Shown in pieces: positions 46,752 through 53,674 of a stretch of 60,033 nucleotides of DNA; the first letter of the stretch is position 1; each line of letters starts with the position of its first letter. The translations under genes were made by a program, and so were the position numbers. The DNA comes from Deltaproteobacteria bacterium. GTDB lineage: Bacteria; Myxococcota_C; UBA6777. The DNA is taken from contig PCBK01000036.1 of NCBI GenBank assembly GCA_002731275.1, positions 1 to 60,033 of the forward strand, read 5' to 3'. A model generated the notes under the pieces. The model made no database searches and was not told the DNA's origin. It worked only from the letters and a program-made list of their open reading frames with translations.

Positions 46752-46871
46752 AGGAGAGTAGCTCAGTCGGATAGAGCAATGGACCGAATTTGTGTGCTTT
46801 GTAGAAAGCACCTCAGCAACCCCCAATTCTTTTTAATCTATAGGTCGTGGGTTCGAGTCCCACTGCCCCGA
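46752..46871 (+). tRNA. Interrupted tRNA-like gene 4 (Lys-UUU-like), split by the integrated element
   Basis: AGGAGAG, TA, D-arm GCTC-AGTCGGATA-GAGC, stem ATGGA/TCTAT, loop TTTTTAA (46830-46836, anticodon TTT), variable AGGTC, T-arm GTGGG-TTCGAGT-CCCAC (46847-46863). The 46-nt insert has GTGCTTT-GTAG-AAAGCAC (46794-46811) and CTCAGCA. The acceptor 3' strand present here, TGCCCCG, does not pair with AGGAGAG. The matching CTCTCCT is at 53591-53597, beyond the element. Joined there, the cloverleaf is perfect and resembles gene 2. So this copy was broken by integration at the T-arm. Confidence 0.8.
46846..46863 (+). repeat. attL: 18-bp core in the T-arm of tRNA-like gene 4
   Basis: CGTGGGTTCGAGTCCCAC is repeated exactly at 53573-53590 in the same orientation. 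It spans the T-stem and T-loop, a common target of tyrosine recombinases. Confidence 0.85.
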
Positions 46872-47232
46872 CTTTTTCGACGATTTCAAGGGTTCTACAC
46901 ATTCACTACAAAAGCAAGCAGAAGCCCGACACATCCGAGCAGATAGCTCGCTCCAAGGAAGCCCTTGTGATCAATTTACGGCGTATGCAGGACATTCTCC
47001 TGACGGTTCTTTGCAAAATTCATGTGCAACATACGTGCAACCGAACTTTGGTGAATTCCCAAGCGACCTCTTAGAGATAGTGACTGTGTGGAAGCATTTG
47101 CCACAACCATTGAGGATGGCTATTCTCACGATGGTACGCTCCATCGCAAGCAAAGACGGTCCAAGGACAGAGCAACAAAGCCGAGGTTGGATGTTTGCAC
47201 AACAAGAGCCATCACCCAAGCAACAAAACTGA
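46864..47232 (+). pseudogene. Displaced 3' end of the integrase gene (122-codon tail)
   Basis: Reading from the attL core in the frame the integrase uses across attR, the frame stays open for 122 codons and stops at TGA 47230-47232. In the excised circle the recombinase would therefore run through the attachment site and end here, making a protein of about 554 residues. The tail contains LLEIVTVWKHLPQPLRMAIL, a W-x-x-LP-x-x-x-(R/K)-x-x-IL type ending seen on many integrases. In the integrated state it has no start of its own. The HNH-like gene starts eight bases later. Confidence 0.8.
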
Positions 47233-47240
47233 GGAGTGCC

Positions 47241-51892: not shown

Positions 51893-52261
51893 ATGAGTGC
51901 GAAAACAGAGAACAGAAACGAACGATTGCGGAGTGTGATCGAACAGATGGCAAAGATGAAGTTTCGGATCGGTGGGATGGAGTTACCTCTCTCACCCACA
52001 CCAAAAGGCATCATCGCAGAATTGGGCAGTTGGCCCCCAAGCACGATCATCACAGAAGAGTACGTAGCAAACCTGTTCAAACGATGCCCTACGAGCATCA
52101 AACGTGCAGTAGGTCGTGGCGAATTGCCCCCTCCCACCCGACTCATGGGAAAGCCAACGTGGACTGTAGGTACGATTGTTCGGCACATCGAAGCTCGTTT
52201 GGAAGAATCCGCAAAGGACGCAGAGCGCACCAGACGAAGATTGAAAGCACACTCCCCTTGA
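51893..52261 (+). CDS. Excisionase-like helix-turn-helix protein
   Basis: A 122-residue basic protein. Residues ~55-100 (ITEEYVANLFKRCPTSIKRAVGRGELPPPTRLMGKPTWTV: positions only) fit a winged MerR/Xis-type fold, where a short helix-turn-helix is followed by a PP-x-R wing and a substrate-strand. GAAGGAG precedes the ATG at 51893; the longer frame from 51815 has no site. It lies 33 bases before the integrase, the usual place for a recombination directionality factor. DNA binding is likely; excision control inferred. Confidence 0.75.
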   Translation: MSAKTENRNERLRSVIEQMAKMKFRIGGMELPLSPTPKGIIAELGSWPPSTIITEEYVANLFKRCPTSIKRAVGRGELPPPTRLMGKPTWTVGTIVRHIEARLEESAKDAERTRRRLKAHSP

Positions 52262-52294
52262 TCACCATCTGGTCCAGAAGCAGGAGAAAAGACC

Positions 52295-53674
52295 ATGGCA
52301 GGAGTACGAAAGAAGCCCAATAAAGGCGGGAAGTTCCAAGGTTGGTACGTGGATTACCACGGCAAAAGAAAATTCTTCACAGGCACCAAAAAGCGAAAGG
52401 AGACACTCCAAATAGCCGAACGTTTGGAAGATGAACATCGCCAAATCAGGCTAGGGTATCGGCCTGTTCCGGACCCATCAAAGCAACACTCACTCCGCCC
52501 GTTTGCGGAAGTGGCGGCGGAGTACATACGATGGGGAAAGGCACAGGGAGGGCGAAGAAACAAGCCTTGGGGAGCAATCCACGCCCGTAACCGGAAGAGA
52601 CAACTTGAGCGATGGCAGGCGCTCCTGGGATTGGAGACCCTTAGTGATCTGTTTGATGCACTTCCCAAGGTCGAAGAAGTCTTGTACGAGATGCAGGATA
52701 AGGGCCGCGTAGGGAAAACCCTCACCAACTTTGGTGAGACACTTTCGGCGTTCTGCGCATGGTGCCTTGAGCGAAAATACCTCTCGGCAAATCCACTCCA
52801 AGGAATGACAAAGTTTGACACTTCCCCCAAGTCCATCCGGCGGGTGATGACGATCGAAGAACTCCAACTGCTCTTGGAAGCCTCTCCCCCACATCTCAGG
52901 CTCTTGTTCGAGCTTGCAGTGTTGACGGGAATCAGGGTGAACGAATTGCGAAACTTGACCGTGGACCATTTGGATTTGGAAAGCGAGGGATTGCATCTTG
53001 ACGAAGATTGGACAAAAAACCGAAAGTCGGGGTTCCAGCCTTTACCCACCCTCTTGCTCCAACGGTTACAGGATTGGATCGCCTCTGGAAAAGCGAAAGA
53101 ACTTTACCGCAAATACAGAAGCAAATCGACCGACGCACGTCCGATTCCCTCCGAACCATTGCTCTTTGTCCCCCTCAACCCCCGTCATTCGATTCATCGG
53201 ATCATGAAGAGGATCGGGATCGCAAAAGAGACGGCAAAGGGCAAATTGGATTTTCATGCCTTGCGTACGACCTACATCAATCTCGTGGACGGAAGTGGTG
53301 CAACGGTCAAGGAGGCCCAATCCTTGGCCCGACATTCAACACCGGCAATGACTTACAATGTCTATGGCCGCACACAGGCTCCCCGGCTCGCTCAAGCAGT
53401 CGAGAGCATCGCCGCGACAGTTCTCCGCCCAGAAGACGATCCCCAACAAAAAACGAACCTGGACGAGAGAAAGTGTGTCATATGTGTGCAACCCGATGAT
53501 CCACCGGGGGAGACTCAAGCGAAATTACCCTTTGGTAGTGAAGAGTTAGAGAAGAACGGCGGAGGAGTGCGACGTGGGTTCGAGTCCCACCTCTCCTGCT
53601 TCTTCTTTTCTCTTTTCTCACTCAACAACAATCACATCCATAGCCTTACCATGATGAAGCGCAAGCGCAGGTGA
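52295..53674 (+). CDS. Tyrosine recombinase/integrase, C-terminus replaced by host sequence
   Basis: A 459-residue integrase as integrated. An N-terminal AP2-like arm-binding part (GGKFQGWYVDYHGKRKFF) is followed by a SAM-like core-binding domain and the catalytic domain: Arg in TGIRVNELRNL (~217), His-x-x-Arg in LDFHALRTTYI (~326), His in LARHSTPAM and the nucleophile Tyr in MTYNVYGR (~353). Codons 427-432 encode RGFESH within the att core. The last 27 residues (from 53591) come from host DNA beyond attR and overlap the convergent gene at 53618. In the circle the protein would instead carry a 122-residue tail (46864-47232). Confidence 0.93.
   Translation: MAGVRKKPNKGGKFQGWYVDYHGKRKFFTGTKKRKETLQIAERLEDEHRQIRLGYRPVPDPSKQHSLRPFAEVAAEYIRWGKAQGGRRNKPWGAIHARNRKRQLERWQALLGLETLSDLFDALPKVEEVLYEMQDKGRVGKTLTNFGETLSAFCAWCLERKYLSANPLQGMTKFDTSPKSIRRVMTIEELQLLLEASPPHLRLLFELAVLTGIRVNELRNLTVDHLDLESEGLHLDEDWTKNRKSGFQPLPTLLLQRLQDWIASGKAKELYRKYRSKSTDARPIPSEPLLFVPLNPRHSIHRIMKRIGIAKETAKGKLDFHALRTTYINLVDGSGATVKEAQSLARHSTPAMTYNVYGRTQAPRLAQAVESIAATVLRPEDDPQQKTNLDERKCVICVQPDDPPGETQAKLPFGSEELEKNGGGVRRGFESHLSCFFFSLFSLNNNHIHSLTMMKRKRR
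53573..53590 (+). repeat. attR: 18-bp core at the right end of the element
   Basis: CGTGGGTTCGAGTCCCAC, identical to 46846-46863. It lies inside the integrase reading frame. Confidence 0.85.
53591..53598 (+). tRNA. Displaced acceptor 3' strand of tRNA-like gene 4
   Basis: CTCTCCT plus discriminator G. It pairs over all seven positions with AGGAGAG at 46752-46758. The T/C-rich run that follows resembles the sequence after tRNA-like gene 2, supporting that this was the native 3' end. Confidence 0.75.

Follow-up and report, generated by a model that had tools for sequence, protein, structure and literature searches.

The DNA analysed here, referred to as the window, is a stretch of 60,033 nucleotides from a Deltaproteobacteria bacterium in which an integrated element splits a tRNA-like gene, and it raises the question of what kind of gene was hit and what became of it. 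Our main reading, to which we assign a probability of about 0.82, is that the locus combines a Ro60-like DUF2828 protein with four tRNA/Y-RNA chimeras (M1 to M4) as its likely partners, and that M4 was later broken by the element. The anatomy, covariation, synteny and permutation described below are supported by sequence comparison and modelling; binding and function we infer.

The features of the interrupted site are as follows.

46846..46863, plus strand: left 18-bp crossover repeat (attL core), in the T-arm
46864..53590, no strand assigned: integrated element of ~6.7 kb, recognised by its flanking repeat and recombinase
47232..48479, plus strand: element ORF, no family found
48530..49084, plus strand: element ORF, no family found
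50262..50756, plus strand: element ORF, no clear family
50957..51634, plus strand: element ORF, no family found
51815..52261, plus strand: element ORF upstream of the recombinase, no family found
52295..53674, plus strand: tyrosine recombinase ORF beside the right repeat (PF00589, E 2e-15)
53573..53590, plus strand: right 18-bp crossover repeat (attR core)
53591..53597, plus strand: displaced 3′ acceptor strand of M4, CTCTCCT, forming 7/7 pairs with AGGAGAG when joined

The original prediction placed 18-bp repeats at 46846 and 53573 within a T-arm, and both copies of CGTGGGTTCGAGTCCCAC were located there, each supplying T-arm sequence to a tRNA-like RNA; by a simple estimate, ~0.03 chance pairs of 18-mers would be expected in 60 kb. 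Its pairing argument was also borne out, since the 5′ acceptor strand of M4, AGGAGAG, forms 4/7 pairs with the TGCCCCG that follows the left copy and 7/7 pairs with the CTCTCCT that follows the right copy. When the M4 flanks are joined in silico, they give a tRNA-like RNA whose acceptor stem is closed 7/7, the same as in 10/10 undisturbed relatives. The join at the empty site is predicted as ...GTCGTGGGTTCGAGTCCCACCTCTCCTGC, which is a reconstruction from the flanks, as no strain free of the element was found. The repeat, the recombinase and the change from 7/7 pairs in the rejoined form to 4/7 now together indicate that the element inserted into M4 and broke it. The best reading is integration into the M4 T-arm at a secondary site: a 6.7-kb tyrosine-recombinase element would have entered after the array had formed and swapped the last seven acceptor bases, a replacement by which M4 would be disabled. 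With one of its members interrupted in this way, the array contains a naturally occurring mutant.

As in other tRNA-targeting integrative elements, a tyrosine recombinase is combined with a direct repeat in a T-arm and an attP carrying a tRNA 3′ end; in contrast to them, the attP end of this element mismatches its target, and the M4 gene is therefore not restored. The circle junction of the element is predicted as GACGTGGGTTCGAGTCCCACTGCCCCGACTTTTT, which resembles the 3′ end of another tRNA. This genome yielded 93 distinct tRNAs, none of which ends in GCCCCG, in agreement with a secondary-site insertion by an attP bearing the end of another tRNA and consistent with the earlier suggestion of off-target integration. 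The perfect 18-bp match occurs in this genome only in M4 and in the right end of the element itself, and the T-arms of two ordinary tRNAs match it with one mismatch. A source for the TGCCCCG end was looked for in IMG/VR and not found, and neither the four genomes of the same family nor IMG/VR yielded a close relative of the recombinase. A scan of the element cargo for defence families gave a single weak match (E 0.004). Separately, at 53498-53674 the recombinase ORF crosses attR, and it would have 554 codons in the circular form versus 459 when integrated; because it reads through attR, its C-terminus is altered by integration.

The description of M4 as a broken tRNA-like array member holds in part: the integration, the 3′ end on the far side and the unpaired replacement all stand, whereas the target is neither a plain nor a degenerate tRNA. 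M4 belongs to a family of tRNA/Y-RNA chimeras that is conserved, shows covariation and lies beside the gene of a Ro60-fold protein, a point missed earlier. The array and its neighbouring gene, after which M1-M4 are positioned, are laid out as follows.

44499..46088, plus strand: Ro60-like protein, DUF2828 and DUF7788 (Pfam), vWA domain with a DTSGSM MIDAS motif; phrog_850 'RNA-binding protein', E 1e-66
46150..46264, plus strand: M1 chimera; hairpin 46190-46207, motif CTCAGCA 46208-46214; RF00005 34.6 bits, R2 90.7 bits
46307..46421, plus strand: M2 chimera, Lys-like CTTTTAA loop kept; hairpin 46340-46357, motif 46358-46364; R2 94 bits
46576..46692, plus strand: M3 chimera; hairpin 46617-46634, motif 46635-46641; RF00005 37.4 bits, R2 95.9 bits
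46752..46863, plus strand: first part of M4, to the end of the T-arm; hairpin 46794-46811, motif 46812-46818; RF00005 33.7 bits with acceptor mispairs, R2 90 bits

Rfam reads M1, M3 and M4 as tRNAs with ~50 extra bases inside the anticodon arm; its search of the window matched only tRNA families and no YrlA. ARAGORN detected none of the chimera genes. Their common plan keeps the tRNA parts in their usual order and adds, within the anticodon arm, a hairpin and C(U/A)CAGCAA; in the window the extra piece contains an 18-base hairpin, G.GYUUU-GUA(G/C)-AAARC.C, followed by CUCAGCA. Four copies of this hairpin and motif are observed versus 0.02 expected, and contig C81 holds a fifth chimera copy of this genome. 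The D and T arms accompany the closed acceptor stem in the 10 undisturbed chimeras and in the joined M4. The standard 7-nt anticodon loop with U33 is absent, as the loop holds the insert. In this reading each RNA is a complete tRNA body with acceptor, D and T arms and natural ends, whose anticodon arm bears a Y stem and then the motif; the two ends of the Y stem are fused by the GUA(G/C) loop and placed inside a normal tRNA. Recognisable anticodons are kept in the chimeras, although an RNA with a purely structural role could do without them, and this counts against the chimera reading. A match reading across from the M1 hairpin to the M2 hairpin (58.9 bits) was set aside, as it is explained by the tandem arrangement and each member has a perfect acceptor stem of its own. 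Between M2 and M3, at 46480-46575, a hairpin GTCGTAT..ATACGAC is accompanied by TTTGTAGACG and by an end resembling a T-arm; this stretch may be a decayed array member.

The neighbouring protein was modelled with AlphaFold from 42 sequences at a pLDDT of 87.5, an earlier model from 4 sequences having been poor (pLDDT 53). The Foldseek ranks 1-10 of this model are all Ro60/TROVE, with E 8e-8 to human Ro60. The VIA Z to human Ro60 is 22.7 over 417 residues, compared with 11.4 for the best non-Ro chain, an unrelated vWA protein, and 13.8 for Deinococcus Rsr. The model contains the HEAT-repeat ring and vWA domain of the Ro60 fold. Pfam TROVE (PF05731) gives no match in the window protein, only DUF2828 and DUF7788, and no TROVE genes were found in the five genomes of the lineage. 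On the model, the protein is Ro-like and is not classed as TROVE. It would probably bind the Y-type stem of the array RNAs.

The lineage sample comprised this genome (G000) and four genomes of the same family, the only five obtained by a phylum search; that they all come from one small, isolated lineage weighs against the main reading. G002 and G004, which belong to another genus of the family, have three chimeras each, two of them directly downstream of the DUF2828 gene, and their DUF2828 protein is 70% identical to that of the window. Neither the DUF2828 array gene nor chimeras were found in G001 and G003. A covariance model of 11 chimeras from the five genomes (R2) scores these at 90-112 bits, and the ordinary tRNAs listed in the same genomes reach at most 60.5 bits. 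In the alignment, 95.4% of paired cells are paired and 19/28 pairs show two-sided changes, a result matched in 0/500 shuffles, with all five helices covered and the acceptor and Y helices 100% paired. Outside the family, a chimera in natural order was seen only on contig L086, from another lineage, 1.4 kb upstream of a DUF2828 gene accompanied by Class I-type modules. An exact pattern scan for the chimera found nothing in IMG/VR, and the exact-pattern matches on GTDB contigs all lay outside a tRNA context and were judged to be chance. Long ORFs with a partial DUF2828 match also occur away from the array, with 1181 aa in G000 and 1235 aa in G002 (L082, L083).

Small RNAs near DUF2828 genes in other replicons carry the same stem and ACAGCAA. 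DUF2828 relatives are encoded in 657 phage records, where members of the family (phrog_850) are annotated as Ro-like RNA-binding proteins. Near these genes, and also beside plasmid ones, lie small RNAs that in phages occur in tandem on the sense strand, with the plan A(AG)-stem-1 to 3 nt-ACAGCAA-variable loop-stem-GU; 3′ of the module stem the first base is G in 30/42 cases and GU follows in 20/42. Leptolyngbya phage Lbo-JY46 has five module copies after its DUF2828 gene, mycobacteriophage Moostard has three, and Bacillus phage vB_BcoS-136 has nine among its tRNAs. In a discovery set of 11 loci, the sense strand carried 49 motifs (32 with a stem) and the antisense strand 4 (0 with a stem), and ACAGCAA with a stem ranked 1/105 among letter permutations. 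The rule was fixed before it was run on six held-out phages of other hosts, which gave 16 sense motifs (12 with a stem) versus 1 antisense (0 with a stem), again at rank 1/105. No stemmed copies were found near the genes of L118 and L120 in the discovery set or of L255 and L256 in the held-out set, a point against the main reading. For distant IMG/VR loci the first motif statistic was weak, and a stricter rule placed the motif at rank 2/105, behind its own one-base shift. Some phage modules enclose a permuted tRNA, as YrlA does, and others resemble the Class I RNAs of Dictyostelium, for which Rfam gives 39.3 bits in L113 and 36.8 bits in L086, both below the cut-off of 41.5. Two observations on individual phages may be added. 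In the jumbo phages XbC2 and CBB (L118 2231-5452, L120 1940-5452) an RNA ligase gene precedes DUF2828 but its vicinity showed no ACAGCAA modules, and the RNA partner may differ; in Klebsiella phage KP2025 (L119 3863-4294) an annotated 432-nt tRNA-Arg overlaps the DUF2828 start, probably an annotation artefact.

These modules bear on an alternative that we consider unlikely, in which the inserts are small introns of real tRNA genes, spliced by protein with the assistance of the Ro-like protein and RtcB. The insert sits close to the loop within the anticodon arm, anticodon-like triplets remain and RtcB genes occur in G000-G003, all of which would suit an intron. However, the stem and motif also exist outside tRNAs, beside the same protein family, and excision would in some cases leave a non-standard loop, as in the Glu-like gene of G002 and G004, which has no U33. 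Moreover, M2 has a complete anticodon arm with the insert placed 5′ of it, ordinary tRNAs already cover Lys-TTT, Gly-TCC, Pro-TGG and Leu-CAA, no Rfam intron family matches at E<=5, and RtcB was not found in G004 despite its three chimeras. The intron reading is thus disfavoured by loop geometry, redundant ordinary tRNAs and a module that exists outside tRNAs. The RtcB-type RNA ligase genes of G000 are on C95, C50, C197 and C154, and none is in the window.

The chimera reading makes a structural comparison possible, in which the phage module is closed into the form found in the window. With its end fused to its start, an L121 module, for example, reads UGUGUCUU-GU.A-AAGACACA-C-ACAGCAA, and the G002 chimera reads GUGUCUU-GU.AC-AAGACAC-C-ACAGCAA; the tRNA insert is thus a phage-type RNA with its ends fused. 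As a test, a model (R1) was built without phage input from the 11 chimeras after each had been opened at its hairpin loop and its tRNA ends linked through four bases. Because tandem ordinary tRNAs can mimic a permuted tRNA and reach up to 37.7 bits in controls, this value was treated as background and only clearly higher matches were counted. R1 matches phage RNAs at full length in L115 (2.7e-13), L114 (5e-12), L119 (2e-11), L121 (4e-11) and L117 (2e-9), with further phage matches down to E 6e-6, and the top matches, at 63 to 40 bits, stand above the background; all of these are on the sense strand, in gaps between annotated tRNAs. The held-out Enterococcus phage L252 matched at E 8e-13 and 4e-12. 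Rfam independently labels L115 (45 bits, E 7.6e-7) and L114 (37.9 bits, E 8.6e-5) as YrlA-like, at scores under the gathering cut-off of 69. The order in the YrlA-type phage copies is Y stem, ACAGCAA, T-arm, acceptor hairpin, D-arm and Y stem, with the permuted tRNA inside. Since R1 finds these RNAs at full length, the window RNAs and the YrlA-type Y RNAs are, as judged from sequence, inverse circular permutations of each other.

The same fit could be explained if the chimeras were precursors, opened by a cut within the hairpin loop and sealed by ligation of their tRNA ends, so that the mature RNA would be a YrlA-type permuted molecule or a circle, and the RtcB genes of G000 would be in keeping with this. 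Cutting of the GUA(G/C) loop has no positive support, however, and the 7-bp acceptor stem is perfect in all undisturbed members, as ends made by RNase P and RNase Z predict; we regard precursors as slightly less probable still than introns. That the array is a functionless relic of degenerate tRNAs with a repetitive hairpin, for which the retention of the broken member and the degenerate-looking stretch at 46480-46575 might speak, is very improbable in view of the strong compensatory covariation in all helices and the preservation of gene and array between genera with 70% identical DUF2828 proteins.

The chimera array, as the preferred reading, can be compared with known systems. Both Ro proteins with Y RNAs and the Ro-like proteins of phages have been described before. 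The YrlA/Ro60/Rsr system (RF02553) shares with the window a Ro-fold gene beside RNAs that join a Ro-binding stem to tRNA D, T and acceptor arms, and the Ro-family gene adjoins the chimera genes in the window, G002 and G004. However, YrlA begins and ends at the Y stem with a permuted tRNA inside, whereas the window RNAs begin and end at the acceptor with a permuted Y stem inside; it is a Y RNA wired inside out, with a Ro-type stem within a tRNA anticodon arm. The YrlA basal stem is not seen as such in the window RNAs, whose order is inverted, and an equivalent arises only after in-silico circular permutation. The protein also differs, being Pfam TROVE in the YrlA system and DUF2828 in the window, where the stem motif is CUCAGCAA/ACAGCAA. 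The phage Ro-like RNA-binding proteins of phrog_850 belong to the same protein family and lie near tRNA arrays, in some phages with RNA ligases, and differ in being accompanied by RNAs of the free Y type or the YrlA type. Dictyostelid Class I RNAs (RF01414) and their phage and viral relatives share an AAG start, a short variable stem, (C)UUACAGCAA after the 5′ strand, a variable loop and a (C)UGU end, a plan that fits the window RNAs only as a permutation, inside tRNAs. Class I RNAs have been reported as unique to dictyostelids (PMC7919456). In the open literature searched, a scope that lay outside the core Y RNA papers, we found no account of a Y stem embedded in tRNA genes, of the ACAGCAA motif beside genes for DUF2828 proteins or of RNAs of Class I type beyond dictyostelids.

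In known bacteria, YrlA is attached to the Ro protein through its basal stem and to PNPase through its tRNA-like part, which gives an RNA-degrading machine (PMC8394870), and rsr and YrlA genes adjoin RNA-repair genes in some bacteria (PMC7790460). By analogy, the stem and (A)CAGCAA of the chimeras would tether the DUF2828 ring, and the tRNA body would recruit a partner that binds tRNA, in the way that YrlA brings in PNPase. The use of several different tRNA bodies might possibly reflect competition with tRNA-cleaving nucleases. More tentatively, and with odds that we place somewhat short of even, dictyostelid Class I RNAs, the YrlA-type RNAs beside DUF2828 genes and the window chimeras could form one RNA class, ligands of DUF2828 Ro-like proteins in which the helix and ACAGCAA are recognised and the chain ends have moved. 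If so, evolution would have given free, YrlA-type and tRNA-embedded forms around a shared helix-ACAGCAA. The system suggests a candidate protein partner for the Class I RNAs of Dictyostelium and provides the large, little-studied DUF2828 family with a concrete candidate RNA ligand that has a short, directly testable motif.

Elsewhere in the window, a leucine-rich-repeat protein is encoded beyond the element (54411-55763, minus strand), and a ~40-base repeat, with exact runs over 18, lies near both window ends (61-102 and 59947-59988).
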